From contig NZ_VUYU01000032.1 of the NCBI RefSeq assembly GCF_011682065.1, positions 1-64,000 of the forward strand: a stretch of DNA of 64,000 bases, in the 5' to 3' direction. This DNA comes from Massilia rubra. GTDB taxonomy: Bacteria > Pseudomonadota > Gammaproteobacteria > Burkholderiales > Burkholderiaceae_D. Each line of letters begins with the position of its first letter. Position 1 is the first letter of the stretch. Of this stretch, positions 14,053-21,617 are shown piece after piece. The notes under the pieces are model-generated. The model saw only the letters and a program-made list of their open reading frames with translations. It ran no database searches and was not told the DNA's origin. The position numbers and the translations under genes were made by a program.

Positions 14053-14607
14053 ATGAACGATTTTCAGCTTGCCAATGTCGAAGCGGACGAGGCCACGCTC
14101 AAGCACTGTTTTGCGCCGGTGGTCGATGCGCACACCCGCATTCTTGTGCTCGGCAGCCTGCCGGGCGAGCGCTCGCTCGCGCAGCAGCAATATTATGGCA
14201 ACCGCCAGAACCGCTTCTGGGCGCTGATGTCGGAAGTCACCGGTGTCGACCTGGTGGCGTTCGATTACGAGGCGCGCCTGGCGGCTTTGCTAACGCACGG
14301 CATCGGCCTGTGGGATGTGGTGGCGCAGGCCCGCCGCGAGGGCAGTCTGGACAGCCAGATTCGCGGCCATGTCGGCAACGACCTGGCGGGGCTGGTGCAG
14401 AGCCTGCCGCAGCTGGCAACGATTGCATTCAATGGCGGCACGGCGGCGCGGCTGGGAATGAAGGCGCTGGGCGAACTGGCGCGGCGCTATCGCATCGTCA
14501 ACCTGCCGTCGAGCAGCCCGGCCTACACGGCGCCGTATGCCGATAAATTGCTGGTGTGGCGGACCTTGGGGGATGAGGTCAGTCCCCAGGCGAGCAGCCC
14601 GGCATAG
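14053..14607 (+). CDS. Hypoxanthine (deoxyinosine)-DNA glycosylase, UDG family 6
   Basis: 184 aa. The N-terminal motif RILVLGSLPGERSLAQQQYYGNRQN, with the residues of the UDG active-site loop, followed by FWALMSEVTG, identifies the family that removes hypoxanthine arising from adenine deamination. The second loop is in NLPSSSPAYT. It is a standalone repair gene immediately upstream of the peptide cluster. The start has no ribosome binding site and may be read from a leaderless message. Confidence 0.88.
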   Translation: MNDFQLANVEADEATLKHCFAPVVDAHTRILVLGSLPGERSLAQQQYYGNRQNRFWALMSEVTGVDLVAFDYEARLAALLTHGIGLWDVVAQARREGSLDSQIRGHVGNDLAGLVQSLPQLATIAFNGGTAARLGMKALGELARRYRIVNLPSSSPAYTAPYADKLLVWRTLGDEVSPQASSPA

Positions 14608-14681: not shown

Positions 14682-14710
14682 TTGACGCAAGTTTGGCATG
14701 CGACTAGGAT
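14682..14710 (+). promoter_or_regulatory. Promoter of the peptide (RiPP) cluster
   Basis: TTGACG (14682-14687), a 17-bp spacer and TAGGAT (14705-14710) lie 64 bp before the first precursor gene. This is the only good sigma-70-like promoter I see before the seven-gene run. The leader between it and the ATG contains an AGAGAGA at 14761-14767. Confidence 0.55.
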
Positions 14711-14774
14711 TTCCTTGCCGCTCTAAGCGGTACACCGTTGGATTGAATTTCGCTATTTTTAGAGAGATACGAAA

Positions 14775-14951
14775 ATGAAAAATCAAAATGGAATGAAAAC
14801 GTTCGCGTTCAAGCTGGCCGAGAAAAAAACCAAAGAAGCAAAACCGGCGCCGCAGTGGCAAGCGCGCGAAGGCGTCTCCACTGCCGGCTGCTCCGGTCCC
14901 GATGCACGCGGCGACCGCCGTCCGGGCCGCGACAACGGCATCTATTGCTGA
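14775..14951 (+). CDS. RiPP precursor peptide 1
   Basis: 58 aa. N-terminal leader rich in Lys with the block FAFKLAEKK (residues 10-18) and KPAPQW (23-28), then a core containing AGCSG (37-41), Asp43, Asp47, GRD (51-53) and a C-terminal Cys58. It aligns without gaps to the second peptide at 15041 (36 of 58 residues identical), the conservation including both cysteines and three aspartates. No transmembrane segment or signal peptide. AGAGAGA lies seven bases upstream; an in-frame ATG at 14793 would shorten it by six residues. A terminator follows at once. Function as the substrate of the downstream ATP-grasp enzyme is inferred from context. Confidence 0.8.
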   Translation: MKNQNGMKTFAFKLAEKKTKEAKPAPQWQAREGVSTAGCSGPDARGDRRPGRDNGIYC

Positions 14952-14969
14952 CAACGTCGCTGGATAACA

Positions 14970-14996
14970 AGCCTTGCTCGTCGCAGGGCTTTTTTT
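14970..14996 (+). terminator. Intrinsic terminator or attenuator between the two precursor genes
   Basis: The stem agccttgc (14970-14977) pairs with gcagggct (14983-14990) around a 5-nt loop, with one G-T pair, and runs into seven Ts. Placed 18 bp after the stop of precursor 1, it would let most transcripts end there, giving more peptide than enzyme. Confidence 0.75.
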
Positions 14997-15040
14997 ATCC
15001 ATATCGCTGTCCTCCACGTCACTTTTTGAAAGATCGGTCC

Positions 15041-15217
15041 ATGGAAAAGCAAGAGAACACCAAGTTGTTTGCCTTCAAACTGGCTGAAAAGAAAGCCAAA
15101 CAAGCCAAGCCAGCCCCGCAATGGAAACTGCGCGACGGCGTCGCCAGCGCCGGCTGCTCCGGCGAAGACCAGCGTGCAGATGGGTACTGGGGCCGCGATC
15201 TCGGCGTATGGTGCTGA
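15041..15217 (+). CDS. RiPP precursor peptide 2
   Basis: 58 aa, the same length as precursor 1, with the shared leader block FAFKLAEKK, KPAPQW, core AGCSG, Asp43, Arg45, Asp47, GRD, Gly55 and terminal Cys58. It differs mostly in the core (for example DGYWGRDLGVWC at the end versus DRRPGRDNGIYC), as expected for two related products of one enzyme set. There is no double-glycine processing site. The Shine-Dalgarno is poor. A second hairpin follows before the ligase gene. Confidence 0.8.
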   Translation: MEKQENTKLFAFKLAEKKAKQAKPAPQWKLRDGVASAGCSGEDQRADGYWGRDLGVWC

Positions 15218-15236
15218 GCGCCTGACACCCGGGCAA

Positions 15237-15263
15237 GCCCTGCTCTTTCGGGCAGGGCGTTTT
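15237..15263 (+). terminator. Weaker hairpin after precursor 2
   Basis: gccctgctc (15237-15245) pairs with gggcagggc (15250-15258), loop tttc, followed by gtttt. The T run is short, so partial read-through into the ligase gene is likely. Confidence 0.55.
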
Positions 15264-15286
15264 CCGTTACATCTTCAAAGCGGCAT

Positions 15287-16285
15287 ATGGCGAAAAAGGT
15301 TCTGATTGTCAGTAACAGCGCCGACCTGCACGTCGACCTGCTCATCCCCATCCTGCAAGCGAAAGGATGCGCGGCCTTCCGCATCGACCTCGATGCTTTC
15401 CCGCGCGATTACCAGAGCGCCCAATGGTTTGCCGCGGGTAGCCTGCGCCAGTGGATCCGCCACCTGCCCTCGGGCGTGTCGCTCGACCTGGCCGAAGTAG
15501 GCGCGATCTGGAGCCGCAAGCCGGCCGAATTCGGTTTTCTCAGCCCCGACCTCGGGGTCCAGGAACGCCTCTTCGCCAGGGCCGAAACCGAGCAGGCGCT
15601 GTTCGGCATGCTCTACACGCTCGACTGCTTCTGGATGAGCCATCCATTAGCCCTGCGCGGCGCCATGTGGAAGGGCGAGCAATTGCAGCGCGCCGCGCGC
15701 ATGGGCTTTCGCATTCCCGCGTCGCTGACGACCAATTCACCCGCCGAAGTGAAAGCCTTCCGCGCCAGTTTTGATGGCCCGATGATCTTCAAGGCCCTGT
15801 CCAGCCCCAATCTCGGGGGCGAGGACCTGGCCGACGATGAGCGCGTGGCGCAGGGCATCGGCACCACCGTGGTCGACGATGCCATGTTCGATCAACTGGA
15901 CTCGGTCGGCGAACTGGCCTGCCATTTTCAGGAGTACATTCCCAAACGGTACGAACTGCGCGTGACGATCATCGGCGAGCGCGTGTTCGCGGCCAGGATC
16001 CATTCGCAGGACGACCAACGCACCGCCATCGATTCGCGCGACATGTCGGCCGATATCCTGTACGAGGCGACTGTCTTGCCGGACGCGCTGCGCGAGCGCT
16101 GCCTGGCGTTCGTGCGCAGCTACGGACTGGCCTACGGCGCGCTGGACCTGATCGTCACGCCCGATGACGAGATCGTTTTCCTGGAAAATAATCCGGTCGG
16201 CCAGTTCCTCTACATCGAGCAGTTGATTCCCGCATTGGCCATGCTCGACGCGCTGGCCGACCGACTTGTCGAGGAGTGCGCATGA
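15287..16285 (+). CDS. MvdD-like ATP-grasp peptide ligase
   Basis: 332 aa. ATP-grasp enzymes of this group form ester or amide cross-links between Asp/Glu and Ser/Thr/Lys side chains of precursor peptides (graspetides such as microviridin). Family features seen: the pre-grasp segment IWSRKP (74-79), FWMSHPLALRGAMWKGEQLQ (115-134), FRIPASLTTNSPAEVKAF (141-158), ELRVTIIG (223-230) and the metal-binding end ALDLIV ... FLENNPVGQF (285-307; E300, N302). It follows the two precursors and overlaps the protease gene by 4 nt (ATGA). Which residues it joins is unknown. The assignment to the ATP-grasp superfamily is firm; membership in the peptide-maturase branch is strongly supported by context. Confidence 0.88.
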   Translation: MAKKVLIVSNSADLHVDLLIPILQAKGCAAFRIDLDAFPRDYQSAQWFAAGSLRQWIRHLPSGVSLDLAEVGAIWSRKPAEFGFLSPDLGVQERLFARAETEQALFGMLYTLDCFWMSHPLALRGAMWKGEQLQRAARMGFRIPASLTTNSPAEVKAFRASFDGPMIFKALSSPNLGGEDLADDERVAQGIGTTVVDDAMFDQLDSVGELACHFQEYIPKRYELRVTIIGERVFAARIHSQDDQRTAIDSRDMSADILYEATVLPDALRERCLAFVRSYGLAYGALDLIVTPDDEIVFLENNPVGQFLYIEQLIPALAMLDALADRLVEECA

Positions 16286-17166
16286 CCCAGTCACACCGTT
16301 TCCCAGTGCGTGAGCAGATCAAGGAGATCGAAGCGCTGCGCGACAGCCGCGTGCTGGTGTTGGCCGCCTCCAACCTGGACATGGAGATCCTGCCGACTCT
16401 ATATGAACAGTGCCGCGCAATCGGCCGGGTGGCGCGCCTGGACGTGGTGCTGCAATGCCGCGGCGGCATCGTCAACGCGGCGCGCCGCATCGCGCTGCTG
16501 CTGCGCCAGTTCAGCGAGCACTTGGCGTTCATCGTGCCGTATCACTGCGAATCCTCGGCCACCATCCTGGCGCTGGCGGCCGATGAAATCATCGCCGGCG
16601 ACCTGGCCATGTTCTCGCCGATCGATCCGCACCTGCATGGCGGGGCCGACGACGACAGCGCCGCCTCATCGTTCTCGTGCCAGGACATCAAGATGTTCGG
16701 CGCCATGAGCGAGGAGTGGTTCGGCGTCAGTTCCGACGAAGCGCGCCTGCAGTCGCTCGGTCTTCTGTGCAACAGCATCTTTCCGCCGACCCTCACCGCG
16801 TTTTACCGCAGCACCGAGGAAGTGATGCGGATCGGCGAAGAACTGCTGCGCTTTCACATGCCCGACAAACCCGAGGCCACGCGCCAGGACGTGGTCAAGG
16901 AACTGATGTTCGGCCATTACTCGCATAACTACGCGCTCACCGGCGAGGAGCTGGCAAAACTGGGGTTGAACATCCGGCGCGAAGCGCAGGTCGAGGAATG
17001 CGCCTGGCGCATATCGCGCGTGCTGCAAACGATTGTCGGCGGCGGCCTGCGCGAATCGGCCGAGGCGCCGTGGAACGATGTGCTGCTGGCCACGCGCGAC
17101 GGCGGCATGCTGCGCGAACATCGCAGCGGCGGCTTCCTGCCGCGCTGGAGCAAGCTGGCCGTATGA
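16282..17166 (+). CDS. SDH-family Clp-fold serine protease
   Basis: 294 aa, no signal peptide. The segment VPYHCESSATILALAADEI (about 85-103) followed by SPIDPHLHG (112-120) matches the serine dehydrogenase proteinase family (PF01972 type), a soluble SppA/ClpP-fold group; the catalytic serine is probably Ser91. Known relatives are poorly characterised. In this operon it is the only peptidase and the exporter lacks a C39 domain, so it is the best candidate to remove the leader. ATGA overlaps at both ends couple it to the ligase and to the MauE-like gene. An ATG six bases upstream (16276) is an alternative start. Confidence 0.82.
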   Translation: MTQSHRFPVREQIKEIEALRDSRVLVLAASNLDMEILPTLYEQCRAIGRVARLDVVLQCRGGIVNAARRIALLLRQFSEHLAFIVPYHCESSATILALAADEIIAGDLAMFSPIDPHLHGGADDDSAASSFSCQDIKMFGAMSEEWFGVSSDEARLQSLGLLCNSIFPPTLTAFYRSTEEVMRIGEELLRFHMPDKPEATRQDVVKELMFGHYSHNYALTGEELAKLGLNIRREAQVEECAWRISRVLQTIVGGGLRESAEAPWNDVLLATRDGGMLREHRSGGFLPRWSKLAV

Positions 17167-17684
17167 GCGCCGCAGCCTACCTCGCGGAGATCATCCGCTT
17201 CTTCACTGCCTTTTTGCTCGTGTGCGCCGCCATCGGCAAATTGCGCACGCTGTCCGCATTCACGCATAACCTGGTCGAGTCGTTCGGCGTGAAGCGGCAG
17301 GCGTCGGCGCTGCTGGCGCCCGCCGTCATCGCGGCCGAGGCGCTGCTGGCGGGCCTGATCCTGGCCGGCGGCGGCATCGGCCGCATCGGCATGGCGGCCG
17401 CCCTCGTGCTGTTCGTCGTGCTGACGGCGCTCGTCGGCTACCGCTACGTGGTCGAAGGCAGCGTCAAATGCAGCTGCTTCGGCGAGAGCGAACGGCCGGT
17501 ATCGGGCTACGACTTGCTGCGCAACGGCTTGGTCATCGCCGCCATCGGCGCCTGCCTTGCATTGCCCGGCGGGGCCGTTTTCGGCAAAAAGGAAAGCGTG
17601 CTGGCCGCCGCGCTGGCGACGATTGCCACGATCGGCGCCATCGGCTTCCACGATCTTGCCCGTACCCTGAAGCGGAGCGCGTGA
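17163..17684 (+). CDS. MauE/DoxX-like membrane redox protein
   Basis: 173 aa with four membrane helices. The loop KCSCFGE (102-108) holds the CxC pair typical of MauE proteins, which are needed with MauD for disulfide formation in methylamine dehydrogenase. No methylamine genes are present. Here it lies between the protease and a thioredoxin-like gene, so a role in oxidising the two conserved cysteines of the peptides is inferred. It overlaps the protease stop by 4 nt and the next start by 1 nt. Confidence 0.85.
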   Translation: MSAAAYLAEIIRFFTAFLLVCAAIGKLRTLSAFTHNLVESFGVKRQASALLAPAVIAAEALLAGLILAGGGIGRIGMAAALVLFVVLTALVGYRYVVEGSVKCSCFGESERPVSGYDLLRNGLVIAAIGACLALPGGAVFGKKESVLAAALATIATIGAIGFHDLARTLKRSA

Positions 17685-18250
17685 TGGATAGCGACGTCCT
17701 GGCCGTCATCCTGCTGCTGCTGGCGTTGAGCGTGGCGCTGAACCTCAAGCTGTCGTTGCAGCTCTTGAAAGTCGTGCATCATCTCAGCGCGGCCGCAAAG
17801 GCGGCATCGATCCTGCCGCTGGGCGAAGCGCTTGACGCCTTTAGCGGCAAACGCCTGGCCGACGGCGCGCCTCTCACGGTGGGCGATGACGGCCAGCCGG
17901 CGGTGCTGCTGTTCCTCTCCAGCGCTTGCCCCAAATGCCGCCACAAGCTGCCCGAGATCGAACACCTGGCGCCGCTGGCGCGCGAAGCCGGCGTGGCGCT
18001 CTGGCTGGTCAGCCTGGAGCCGGGCTGGCGCCTGCGCCGCTTCCTGCAAGCGACCACGCTGGAAGGCAGCACCGTGCGCGTCTCCGGCGCCGACTACGGC
18101 ATGCTCAACCCGCTCATGTCTTCACCTTCGTACCTGTTCGTCAGCCAGGCCGGCACCCTGGACGCGCGCGGCATGATCGGCGACGACGACTGGCGCAGTT
18201 TTTGCGAACAGATGGACGAGATGCCGACGGCGCAAGAGGCAGGCGCGTGA
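17684..18250 (+). CDS. Membrane-anchored thioredoxin-like protein (MauD/TlpA type)
   Basis: 188 aa. One N-terminal transmembrane helix (about 6-22) and a thioredoxin-fold domain with the active site SSACPKC (79-85; C82, C85). It also has the conserved PSYLFV turn with a proline near position 147. Together with the preceding MauE-like protein it forms a MauE/MauD-type redox pair. The domain probably faces the periplasm. It overlaps the exporter start by 4 nt (GTGA). Confidence 0.85.
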   Translation: MDSDVLAVILLLLALSVALNLKLSLQLLKVVHHLSAAAKAASILPLGEALDAFSGKRLADGAPLTVGDDGQPAVLLFLSSACPKCRHKLPEIEHLAPLAREAGVALWLVSLEPGWRLRRFLQATTLEGSTVRVSGADYGMLNPLMSSPSYLFVSQAGTLDARGMIGDDDWRSFCEQMDEMPTAQEAGA

Positions 18251-20010
18251 GCCGGGCGTCGCCCCATCTCGACCGCCTGCGCCTGCTGCGCCCCTTCGCC
18301 GGCCGCCTGTGCGCGGGCCTGGTGTGCATGGCGGTGACGGTGCTGATCCAGCTGGCCTATCCCAAGGCGCTGTCGTACTTCATCGATAACATCAACGTGA
18401 GGAACGACATGGCGTGGTTCAGCTCACTGGCGCTGATCATGCTGGCCGTGCTCGCGCTGCAGGCAGTGGCGGCCACCGCGCGCTATTACATTTTCGAGTC
18501 GACCGGCTACATGATCGTCACGCGCATCCGGCGTCAGTTGTACGCGGCGCTGATCGGGCAGCCAATCGGCTTCTACGACAAGCACCACGTCGGCGAACTG
18601 ACTAACCGCCTCACGGCCGATGTCGAAATCCTGCACGACACGCTGACCATGGGGATGGCCGTCTCGCTGCGCTGCCTGTGCGTGTTCATCGGCGGCGTGG
18701 CGATGCTGCTGGCAATTTCGCCGGTCCTCTGCCTGATGCTGGTGATCTTTTTGCCGGCGACGCTATTCATCGGCAAAATGACGGGCAAGGTGTACCGCAA
18801 GCGCGCCAGCCTGATGCAGGACGGCCAGGCCGAATGCGGCAAGGTCGCGCAGGAGCATTTTTCGAATATCCGCCTGGTGCATGCCTTCAGCCAGCAGCGC
18901 ACCGCGCGCGCGCGTTACGCCGGCGCGACCGGGCATGCCTTGTCGCTGTCGGTGTCGAGCAGCGCGCTGTTTGCGCTGTTTCGCGGCGGCTCGTCGTTCC
19001 TGGTGTACCTGGCGCTGCTGGGGACTTTATGGTTCGGCGCGCGCCTGATCGGACAGGGCGCGCTGTCGGTGGGCGACCTGACCGCCTTTATCCTGTACGC
19101 CAGCATGGTGACCGAAGCGGCCGGCGCCATCGGCGAATTCTGGAACGCGTGGATGCGCACCATCGGCGCCACCGAATGGATCTTCAACGTCATCAACAGC
19201 GAACGCGCGCAGCAAGCCGCGCCGGGTGGCGAGGTGCGCTTGCAGGGCAAGCTGGCATTCGAGAACGTGGCGTTTGCGTATCCCGAACGGCCGGATACGC
19301 CGGCGTTGAACGGCATCGATTTTTCGATTGCCGCCGGCGAGACGATTGCGCTGGTCGGCGCATCCGGCGCCGGCAAGTCGACCATCGCCAGCCTGATCCT
19401 GGGTTTCTACCAGCCCGACAGCGGCAGCATTTTGTTCGACGGTGCTCACGCCAGCGCCATGACGCTGGCGGGCATCCGCAGCAAGCTGGCGATCGTGGAG
19501 CAGGAGCCATCGCTTTTTTCGGGAAGCATATTCGAGAACATCGCGTTCGCGGTGGCCGAACGCGACGTGACCCTGGATGAAGTGAAGGCGGCGGCCAGCC
19601 TGGCCTATGCCCACGATTTCATCAGCGCCTTCCCGGATGGCTATGACACCGTGGTCGGCGAGCGTGGCGCGCAACTGTCGGGCGGGCAGAAACAGCGCAT
19701 CGCGATTGCGCGCGCCCTGCTGCGCGATCCGCGCATCCTGATCCTCGACGAAGCGACCAGCGCGCTCGATTCCTCCAGCGAACTGCAGGTGCAGCGCGCG
19801 CTCGACACCTTGATGCAAGGGCGCACCACGATCATCATCGCGCACCGCTTTTCCACCATCGTCAAAGCCGACCGCATCTTGGTGCTGGAGCAGGGCAGGC
19901 TGGCGCAGCAGGGCACGCACGCGCAACTGGTGGCGCAGCAGGAGGGCTTGTACTTCCACCTGATGCGCCACCAGTTGGCACGGGCCGGCGACGATCTGGT
20001 TCCGGCTTAA
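18247..20010 (+). CDS. ABC exporter, fused membrane and ATPase domains
   Basis: About 587 aa from a GTG overlapping the preceding stop; no other start fits. Six-helix ABC_membrane domain (about 15-300) then ATPase with Walker A GASGAGKST (about 370), signature LSGGQKQRIAIARAL, Walker B ILILDEATSALD and the H-loop AHRFSTI. This is a half-transporter acting as a homodimer, of the type that exports lipids, drugs or peptides. It has no N-terminal C39 peptidase domain. As the last gene of the cluster it most likely exports the modified peptide. Its TAA overlaps the stop of the convergent PhoD gene (TTAA, 20007-20010). Confidence 0.9.
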   Translation: MSRASPHLDRLRLLRPFAGRLCAGLVCMAVTVLIQLAYPKALSYFIDNINVRNDMAWFSSLALIMLAVLALQAVAATARYYIFESTGYMIVTRIRRQLYAALIGQPIGFYDKHHVGELTNRLTADVEILHDTLTMGMAVSLRCLCVFIGGVAMLLAISPVLCLMLVIFLPATLFIGKMTGKVYRKRASLMQDGQAECGKVAQEHFSNIRLVHAFSQQRTARARYAGATGHALSLSVSSSALFALFRGGSSFLVYLALLGTLWFGARLIGQGALSVGDLTAFILYASMVTEAAGAIGEFWNAWMRTIGATEWIFNVINSERAQQAAPGGEVRLQGKLAFENVAFAYPERPDTPALNGIDFSIAAGETIALVGASGAGKSTIASLILGFYQPDSGSILFDGAHASAMTLAGIRSKLAIVEQEPSLFSGSIFENIAFAVAERDVTLDEVKAAASLAYAHDFISAFPDGYDTVVGERGAQLSGGQKQRIAIARALLRDPRILILDEATSALDSSSELQVQRALDTLMQGRTTIIIAHRFSTIVKADRILVLEQGRLAQQGTHAQLVAQQEGLYFHLMRHQLARAGDDLVPA

Positions 20011-21617
20011 GCCCCGGCTGCCGTCAGCGTTTTGCTGAACTGCGATACGCCATTGAGATCGAACAGCTCGACCTTCATCGCCTTCGACTGCGGGTCGATA
20101 TTGACTTCGCCGAAGAACTGGTAGCCGGCGAACGGCGACGAATTCTGGATCGGCGGCGCCTTGGCAAACACCTCGGTCGGGCCGAACGTCATATCGAGCT
20201 TGCCCGGACCGAAGGCGCCGGCATTCATCGGGCCGGCCACGAATTCCCAGAACGGCGCAAAATCGGTGAAGTGCGCCTTGGCCGGGTCGTAGTAATGGGC
20301 CGCGCAGTAATGCACGTCGGTCGTGATCCAGACCACGTTCGGCACCGCCTTGATGCCCTTGAGCAGGCGCGCCATTTCCAGCTCGCGTCCCGAGGCCGGC
20401 CCGCTCACGCCATTGGCCACCGCTTCCCACATCGCCACGCCTTTGGCGTCCTTGCCGTCGGCGACTTCCAGCCCGATCGGCATGTCCGACGAGATGACTT
20501 TCCAGGTCGCTTTCGAGGCGCTCAGTTCGGCGATCAGCCAGTCCACCTGGGCCGAGCCGAGGATGGCCGAAGCGGCGTTTTCCTCGGTCTGCAGGTTGGT
20601 GCTGTTGGGACCACGATAGCTGCGCATGTCGATCACGAACACGTCGAGCAGCGGGCCGTAAGCGATGCTGCGGTAGATGCGCTGGGGTTCGGCCTGTTTG
20701 TAAAAGCGCATCGGCGCGTATTCCAGGAAGGCGCGCCGGCCACGCTCGGCCAGGGTGGCGACGTTCTTTTCCTTGTAGCGCGCATCGGCCGCCAGGTCCT
20801 TGGCGCCGCTGTAGTTGTTGGTCACTTCGTGGTCGTCCCACTGCCAGATCTGCGGCACTTGCGCGGCGAATTTGCGAAAGTTCAGGTCGAGCGTGTTGTA
20901 AGAGTGGCGGCCACGGAATTCCTTGAGCGTTTCGGCGACCTTGCTCACCTCTTCGGTCACGATGCTTTTCCAGATCTGGCCATTTTCGGCCTTCGCTTCG
21001 GCCGCGATCGGGCCGTCGGCGTAGACCGTGTCGCCGTTATGGATGAAGAAATCCGGATCGCGCTTGCGCATCGATTCGTACATGCGCACGCCGCCGAAAT
21101 CCGTATTGATGCCCCAGCCCTGGCCGGCCTGGTCGCCGCTCCAGTGGAAGCGGATGGCGCGCTTGCCGTCCGCCTGCGGCATGGTGCGGAACTGGCCCGC
21201 GACGGGCTCGCTCTCGATGCGGCCATTGGCCGGGTCGACGTACTTCACGCGCACGAACACGGTCTGGCCGGCCGGGAGGCCCGACAAGTCGACGCGCGAG
21301 GTGAAGTCGGTGGCCTCGGTGGCGGTCGGGCCGGCAATGCGGCTGGCGTTGGTGAAGCGCTCGCTGGTGTCGTATTCGACAATCATTTGCGCAGTGCGGT
21401 CGCTGCGGCTCCAGATCACGGCGCGTTCGCCGGTCACGTCGCCGAACTGGATCCCCGAGGGCAGCTTGGGCCGTTCGGCGTCGCTGGTGACGATGGCCGG
21501 AGCAGGGGAGTCGGAACCGCCGCAGGCCGACAGCAGCAGCGACCCGTTGAGCGCCGTGCCGCCGGCGATGATGCCGCCGCGCGTGAGGAAACCGCGGCGT
21601 GAAAGTGTTGAGGTCAT
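20007..21617 (-). CDS. PhoD-like alkaline phosphatase/phosphodiesterase, Tat-exported
   Basis: 536 aa. The N-terminus LSRRGFLTRGG is a twin-arginine signal ending near SACGG, which could also be lipidated. PhoD features follow: an Ig-like N-terminal domain, then HWSGDQAGQGW, FFIHNGDTVYADGP, WDDHEVTNNY and TTDVHYCAAHYY, containing the Asp/His metal ligands. The family releases phosphate from phosphate esters, often under phosphate limitation. Single gene, convergent with the peptide exporter and with no terminator between the two. Confidence 0.9.
   Translation of the reverse strand: MTSTLSRRGFLTRGGIIAGGTALNGSLLLSACGGSDSPAPAIVTSDAERPKLPSGIQFGDVTGERAVIWSRSDRTAQMIVEYDTSERFTNASRIAGPTATEATDFTSRVDLSGLPAGQTVFVRVKYVDPANGRIESEPVAGQFRTMPQADGKRAIRFHWSGDQAGQGWGINTDFGGVRMYESMRKRDPDFFIHNGDTVYADGPIAAEAKAENGQIWKSIVTEEVSKVAETLKEFRGRHSYNTLDLNFRKFAAQVPQIWQWDDHEVTNNYSGAKDLAADARYKEKNVATLAERGRRAFLEYAPMRFYKQAEPQRIYRSIAYGPLLDVFVIDMRSYRGPNSTNLQTEENAASAILGSAQVDWLIAELSASKATWKVISSDMPIGLEVADGKDAKGVAMWEAVANGVSGPASGRELEMARLLKGIKAVPNVVWITTDVHYCAAHYYDPAKAHFTDFAPFWEFVAGPMNAGAFGPGKLDMTFGPTEVFAKAPPIQNSSPFAGYQFFGEVNIDPQSKAMKVELFDLNGVSQFSKTLTAAGA

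Follow-up and report, generated by a model that had tools for sequence, protein, structure and literature searches.

A conserved, probable graspetide operon in Massilia rubra with an SDH-family protease and a MauE/MauD-like pair among its partner genes

Among the ribosomally synthesised and post-translationally modified peptides (RiPPs), graspetides are the closest described relatives of the system reported here, a seven-gene operon within a 64,000-nucleotide stretch of the Massilia rubra genome (contig NZ_VUYU01000032.1, positions 1 to 64,000; hereafter the window). According to a 2026 survey, a serine proteinase lies near over half of the members of graspetide 'group 9' of the RODEO surveys, and its authors knew of two secondary modifications of graspetides, acetylation and one other, citing a third chemistry on a linear precursor (PMC13097080). 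Group 9 is probably the graspetide group of the window's cluster, which is therefore not wholly new, since an association of such a group with a serine proteinase has been published (PMC13097080). MauE does not occur in the main text of that survey; neither SDH nor MauE is found in the table of frequent partner families of a 2022 survey (PMC8939145), and a review on the leader proteases of RiPPs uses none of the words SDH, ClpP and Clp in its main text (PMC10885120). In Streptomyces, decRiPPter yielded three candidate families with mauE homologues, one of them also with mauD, for which a disulfide was considered; these differ from the window's cluster in phylum and in having precursors with at least eight Cys, and the ATP-grasp enzymes of that study have no direct similarity to the microviridin-type RiPP ones (PMC7794033, in part). 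The literature searched, which did not extend to two key surveys (2020 and 2021), held no description of MauE/MauD or of a disulfide together with graspetides or ATP-grasp enzymes, and no description of the window's system was found there among graspetides or microviridins of Massilia and its kin. An earlier reading of the window from its letters alone (the sequence-only reading) had stated that it knew of no described product of such a system; this held for the literature searched, and needs narrowing in that a ligase group with a serine proteinase is in print (PMC13097080, in part).

The cluster is a real and conserved biosynthetic operon of a known kind, that of the graspetides, with an unusual set of partners. 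Its seven genes all lie on the + strand (14775–20010, from ORF calls) behind a promoter at 14682–14710. The ORFs, their coordinates and a motif scan confirmed the layout given in the sequence-only reading, namely a promoter, two paralogous precursors of 58 residues and five overlapping genes in one direction, the successive overlaps between the ligase, SDH, MauE, MauD-like and ABC genes being 4, 4, 1 and 4 nt. The first of these five genes (15287–16285, 332 aa) encodes the ATP-grasp graspetide synthetase. It was found to contain the MvdD pre-ATP-grasp domain (PF21068, 4.5e-11), and among the NCBIfam models TIGR04187 (3.9e-64) and MvdD (1.4e-58) matched far above RimK (6.5e-6). Comparison with the sequences of solved structures placed CdnC (7mgv, 8.7e-58) first, followed by 5ig9 (6.2e-54) and 5ig8 (1.3e-43). 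With 7m4s (AMdnB), 9bou and 7drm these make up the six matches at 0.001, all of them ATP-grasp ligases of the MvdD kind; 5ig9, 5ig8 and 7drm we take to be MdnC, MdnB and PsnB. Residues K129, K169, R225, D287, E300 and N302, presumably part of the ATP/Mg site, belong to a set of 44 columns that do not vary across 62 sequences. The preference for TIGR04187 and MvdD over RimK and the uniform kind of the solved matches identify the ligase as a graspetide-type peptide maturase, and on the same grounds a housekeeping enzyme of the RimK or glutathione type was rejected.

The two genes upstream of the ligase encode the precursor peptides, each of 58 aa. Precursor 1 (14775–14951, + strand) has an FAFKLAEK leader, the motif WxxR[DE]G and a core in which AG is followed by CS, a loop and DxGxxC; precursor 2 (15041–15217, + strand) is its paralogue, recognised from the ORF and the same core frame. 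Neither gave a match in Pfam or NCBIfam. A hidden Markov model built on the leader only, which carries no information on the core, gave 132 peptides at E 0.05, from 59 of the 65 loci, and 130 of these peptides carried the frame C[S/T]...[D/E]xGxxC (129 with D, one with E), the two exceptions being frame-broken Shewanella copies. The six loci without a leader match were L127 and five (L118, L121, L126, L128 and L132) whose precursors have a diverged leader and the same core frame. By tblastn with whole peptides, 95 of 102 pieces fitted the frame, and the other seven, empty or out of frame, were dropped before counting. Such conservation across loci, in the tblastn and leader searches alike, led us to reject the precursors as chance small ORFs. 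Two tests of the sequence-only reading had been set beforehand, namely that the peptides be kept beside the ligase in other genomes and that the ligase group with peptide maturases; both were passed, precursors lying beside the ligase in 38/38 family loci with a close ligase. As in the graspetides with solved ligases, the locus combines ligase homology over nearly the full length with an ABC exporter and with a short precursor beside the ligase, whose leader is conserved and whose variable core keeps Ser/Thr and Asp/Glu. It differs from them in a single predicted ester, where they have several rings, and in a Cys pair around it, in the SDH, in the MauE/MauD-like pair and in an exporter without a C39 peptidase domain.

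For the composition of the cores, 127 distinct ones were picked with the pattern GC[S/T]...[D/E]xGxxC, the columns of which are thus fixed by selection. Ala preceded Gly-Cys in 126 of them, and the C-terminal carboxylate was D in 126 and E in one; a peptide of L125 has GG in place of AG before the Cys. The loops are hypervariable (97 distinct, 9–26 residues long) and contain 0.2% Cys; 24, including those of both window peptides, lack Ser, Thr and Lys, while four lack Asp and Glu. An upstream motif WKxR[D/E]G is common, with W in 115, R in 120 and D/E in 111 of the cores. In the Oxalobacteraceae, and in the gammaproteobacterial set that excludes Lysobacteraceae, loops were rich in Arg (16.4% and 19.5%, respectively) and poor in Lys (1.1% and 0/154 residues), whereas the leaders of both sets had 17–19% Lys and 2–3% Arg; the peptides are related, and p-values for this comparison are not independent. 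The Lysobacteraceae showed the same trend more weakly, and the Bacteroidota did not show it (4 K and 8 R of 129). It should also be noted that four loci of Pseudoduganella and Massilia relatives (L037–L040) carry arrays of eight to ten precursor genes upstream of the ligase.

To follow the cluster in related bacteria, 392 genomes of the Oxalobacteraceae-type family were surveyed. The ligase search at 1e-10 gave matches in 47, of which 36 (the window's included) held 38 loci with at least 57% identity; ligases of Massilia aquatica, M. mucilaginosa, M. atriviolacea and M. frigida were 86–94% identical to that of the window. The other 20 ligase matches of the family had 27–38% identity, and in the 15 of these regions that were read, tblastn at the thresholds used detected no SDH, MauE or MauD-like genes. 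A quick ligase tree, from which one of 15 distant ligases was left out by the coverage/stop filter, separated 13 of the remaining 14 from the SDH-carrying clade. The edge of this clade is unsure because L068 and the Chloroflexota ligase L127 lie beside it on long branches. A search with the SDH alignment found 40 loci in 36 of the 392 genomes, the same genomes as those of the ligase clade when the lists were compared by eye. Precursor, SDH and exporter were present in all 40, the ligase in 38 and MauE with the MauD-like protein in 36, so that the co-occurrence of the seven genes in other Oxalobacteraceae, put forward for checking with the sequence-only reading, is borne out. The cluster is a conserved system and not a chance assembly.

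Outside the family, 24 loci were considered, 23 from a genome-contig scan and one from a genome of the order. The scan had given 50 loci, 27 of them in Oxalobacteraceae; 26 duplicates of family-survey loci and L130 were left out of the count, L130 being from an uncultured Massilia metagenome-assembled genome (MAG) that has every gene. A ligase was present in all 24, SDH in 22, MauE and MauD-like genes in 19 each, an exporter-like gene in 18 (upstream on the other strand in L122, L123 and L129) and a precursor in 22. Genes were missing at L110, L116 and L127, at L112, whose precursors are out of frame, at L125, where no exporter was seen, and at L114 and L115, which run into contig ends. Like group 9 with its proteinase, the cluster thus keeps a serine proteinase, the SDH, in 40/40 family-survey and 22/24 outside loci. 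Hosts included Luteimonas, Lysobacter, Kangiella, Rheinheimera, Bowmanella, Shewanella, Idiomarina and Pseudoalteromonas, with an alphaproteobacterial Brevundimonas MAG and Bacteroidota, and since they span these groups it is probable that the cluster has moved between lineages. Beyond the family the cluster is rare: wider searches gave one of 399 genomes of the order beyond the window's own at 1e-60 and, at 1e-50, one of 398 of the phylum, a weak match with no SDH in the 4 kb retrieved. Locus L134, a weak ligase match whose retrieved 4 kb held neither SDH nor Mau genes, was dropped from the counts. Spread on sequenced plasmids was rejected, as all 53 records from the plasmid collection had less than 60% identity to the ligase.

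The gene following the ligase (16282–17166, + strand, 294 aa) encodes an SDH-family, Clp-fold serine protease (PF01972, 60.1 bits against a cut-off of 31.3, 2.2e-16). As in SDH-type proteinases (PF01972/NF047768) the GG loop, Ser and His are kept; G61-G62, S91, D115 and H215 are invariant in 60 sequences, and S91 and H215 align with the Ser and His of both distant homologues that were extracted (from two of seven loci tried). From these alignments G61, G62, S91 and H215 are the probable catalytic residues. Unlike those proteinases, the window SDH represents a RiPP-linked subfamily (72.7 bits against the NF047768 equivalog cut-off of 250). It has no hydrophobic segment over the threshold used, and a sequence search against solved structures gave no relative, with one match at E 0.88. 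The last gene (18247–20010, + strand) encodes a half-size ABC exporter of 587 aa whose Pfam domains over cut-off are PF00664 and PF00005 only. No C39 domain was found in it with Pfam or NCBIfam, and models of peptidase-containing exporters match it only from about profile position 140–164 on. A separate protease is needed because the exporter lacks a peptidase domain, and Pfam showed no second protease in the operon. The SDH carries the Ser, His and GG loop and occurs at all loci of the family survey, beside an exporter without a peptidase; it is therefore proposed as the leader peptidase, the likeliest role to judge from sequence comparison. Its cut would fall after the conserved AG and before the Cys.

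Between the SDH and exporter genes lie those for a MauE-family membrane protein of 173 aa (17163–17684, + strand; PF07291, 79 bits against a cut-off of 27, 5e-22) and a MauD/TlpA-like thioredoxin of 188 aa (17684–18250, + strand). MauE has five hydrophobic segments and a C103xC105FG motif whose Cys pair is invariant in 54 sequences. The MauD-like protein has an N-terminal hydrophobic anchor, a C82xxC85 motif invariant in 52 sequences and an invariant P148; it scored just under the cut-offs for Redoxin and AhpC-TSA and had 26.6 of the 188.6 bits set for MauD (TIGR02661). The families named in the sequence-only reading were therefore right for the ATP-grasp, SDH, MauE and ABC proteins, while its 'MauD' is to be read as a looser, MauD-like thioredoxin. 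In the genome of Rugamonas rivuli that holds L051, MauE and MauD-like domains occur in one reading frame (L090:9871–10815), a natural fusion. Together with the kept Cys pairs this is as expected of partners, and the two proteins likely form a disulfide in the precursor. As the Cys beside the Ser and the last Cys frame the ester, this disulfide would lie just outside it. If so, it would to our knowledge be the first enzyme-made disulfide of a graspetide.

For the ester position, the cleavage site, the order of the steps, the disulfide and the activity, we infer the following. The conserved FAFKLAEK leader would bring the precursor to the ligase, which, with ATP, would join the Asp side chain of DxGxxC to the Ser/Thr after the first core Cys with a loss of 18 Da, giving one ester ring. 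The cytoplasmic SDH would then cut off the leader, most likely after Ala-Gly, and free a core of about 20 residues with Cys at both ends, which the ABC exporter would carry across the inner membrane. On the periplasmic side MauE and the MauD-like protein, the latter anchored in the membrane, would then link the two Cys by a disulfide that lies outside the ester, and the end product would be a double-stapled, Arg-rich loop, variable in sequence and length. For a core cut between Gly and Cys and carrying both ester and disulfide, the calculated neutral monoisotopic masses are 2143.939 (precursor 1) and 2251.916 (precursor 2). One ester between S40 and D53 would be the simplest product for the window's precursors because their loops have no other nucleophile, and one Ser/Thr-Asp ester inside one Cys-Cys disulfide, displaying an Arg-rich loop, appears the likeliest structure from the conserved frame. 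Analogy with other graspetides suggests that the product most likely inhibits a protease or serves as a competition peptide. The cross-linked, possibly disulfide-bonded and exported peptide of the sequence-only reading thus gains support from the conservation of the core frame, the enzymes and the Cys pairs. A complete graspetide cluster of this kind, with a ligase-made ester, leader removal by the SDH, export and a periplasmic disulfide, is considered probable. A more specific proposal is advanced tentatively, as somewhat more apt to fail than to hold: that the SDH represents a kind of leader peptidase new to RiPPs, with its cut between Ala-Gly and Cys, and that the system is a natural loop-display scaffold, its ester nested in an end-to-end disulfide around a hypervariable, Arg-rich loop of 9–26 residues, with loci that hold as many as ten precursor genes and with precursor-SDH-exporter satellites modified in trans by a second cluster.

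Some of the results weigh against the proposed cluster function. The ligase lies below all NCBIfam cut-offs (MvdD 198.6 of 475 bits, MvdC 143.6 of 425, SAV_5884 subfamily 216.8 of 350), and the SDH and 'MauD' scores given above are far below those of their equivalogs. A peptide of a Lysobacter MAG (L110:7731–7931) ends in DGRAYC, without the G of DxG and below the leader threshold; both precursors of Shewanella sp. HN-41 (L112:7381–7960) are out of frame in the draft. The frequent carboxylate of the upstream R[D/E]G (111/127) could be a second linkage site. Locus L110, in a Lysobacter-type MAG, has precursors and ligase without an SDH, although a second locus of this MAG (L123) has SDH, MauE and MauD-like genes. 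A Lysobacterales MAG locus, L116, keeps precursor, ligase, SDH and both Cys without MauE/MauD-like and exporter genes, and no second locus of its MAG was seen in the contig scan. This is the one result against a strict need for MauE/MauD, from a MAG that may be incomplete. Lastly, the ligase of the Chloroflexota MAG (L127, 42% identity) lies on a short contig without precursor, SDH, MauE or MauD-like genes and with at most a weak exporter match.

Other roles can be assigned to the same genes. The SDH might protect the producer, the product inhibiting a Clp/SDH-type protease to which the operon copy is resistant. Self-resistance via possibly duplicated housekeeping genes has been proposed for the serine proteinases of group 9 (PMC13097080, in part), and all graspetides characterised by 2022 were protease inhibitors (PMC8939145, in part). 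However, no second protein of the window genome that might serve as a housekeeping target exceeds the PF01972 cut-off (two further matches, at 22 and 19.9 bits, lie below). Of 100 genomes searched in the phylum, not one had a match at the NCBIfam SDH cut-off, yet 64 had weaker matches whose products could still be targets. As the SDH also remains beside precursor and exporter at loci that have lost the ligase, in an operon without another protease, self-resistance fits less well than a role as leader peptidase and is thought unlikely. A reading of AGC as a lipobox, which would make the peptides small lipoproteins and not RiPPs, is highly improbable: [VTSA]AGC[ST] does resemble a lipobox, but the leader is charged and the operon codes for a graspetide-type ligase and an exporter. 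The lipoprotein reading was rejected on the lack of a hydrophobic stretch in the precursors, whose maximum hydropathy over 19 residues is −0.64 and −0.43.

The chemistry of the core may likewise be read differently. There may be no disulfide, the first Cys being a thioester or thiol partner of the ligase or a metal ligand, with MauE/MauD keeping it reduced or serving another step. In favour of this, non-native thioesters are possible with graspetide synthetases (PMC13097080), six loci that lack MauE/MauD-like genes (L057, L065, L110, L116, L138 and L139) nevertheless retain both Cys, and a third Cys occurs within the loop of some Bacteroidota precursors, upstream of the ligase in L118, L121 and L132. 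Of the six loci lacking the pair, however, five are in genomes or MAGs whose second locus has both genes, and with Cys so rare in the loops, and MauE and the MauD-like protein each keeping a Cys pair and sharing a single frame in one genome, a core without a disulfide seems doubtful. The ring might instead be a different one, or be joined by a second, through the Asp/Glu of WKxR[D/E]G or through residues of the loop, and the core would then begin ahead of AGC. The frequency of that motif's three residues speaks for this, and characterised graspetide synthetases usually install several linkages (PMC13097080, in part). On the other side, the upstream position is not D/E in 16 of 127 cores, whereas the C-terminal carboxylate is there in 130 of 132 leader-found peptides, and the window's loops offer no nucleophile besides the Ser after the Cys, yet both window precursors have Ser/Thr upstream of AGC. 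On balance another ring is held to be improbable beside the single ester within a disulfide.

Reduced loci bear on how the proposed steps may be shared. L057 and L065 lack MauE/MauD-like genes, and L138:5728–8581 and L139:9113–6260 consist of precursor, SDH and exporter only, without ligase, MauE or MauD-like genes. The precursors of all four keep C, S/T, D and C. Because the four genomes carry a complete second cluster (L056, L054, L052 and L063, respectively), the lost steps could be supplied in trans, and through these natural loci Duganella and Rugamonas offer a direct test of such modification. If the proposed function is correct, it would add a new protease family for RiPP leader removal and a disulfide for graspetides, and would offer a small double-stapled scaffold, with a loop tolerant in sequence and length, for use in display and inhibitor design.

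The promoter of the operon is sigma-70-like (TTGACG-17-TAGGAT, 14682–14710, + strand), and was recognised by motif scan and by the same position and −35 core in relatives. The motif has two sites in the window, one per strand, against a mean of 0.3 in shuffles, and a TTGAC-type −35 lies 56–70 bp 5' of the first precursor start in 35 of 38 relative loci. A promoter score of at least 9/12 was reached in 36/38 loci against 241/760 shuffles, and taken alone this score is weak evidence for a conserved promoter. Terminator-like hairpins were detected by scan on the + strand in the gap between precursors 1 and 2 (14969–15001) and between precursor 2 and the ligase (15237–15268). Under a stricter rule the gap between last precursor and ligase held a hairpin in 26/38 loci against 4/760 shuffled controls, and gaps between precursors in 17/57; the window's own precursor 2/ligase hairpin fails this rule, having too few T. 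Partial termination is a frequent route to more precursor than enzyme, and the hairpin before the enzyme genes may set such an excess here. Rfam at gathering thresholds gave no matches in the window. Upstream of the operon lies a hypoxanthine-DNA glycosylase gene (14053–14607, TIGR04274), and the downstream gene (20007–21617) was taken for a PhoD-like phosphatase by eye, without a family search. By tblastn, both flanking genes were near the cluster in none of 31 other family loci and in all six same-genus relatives.

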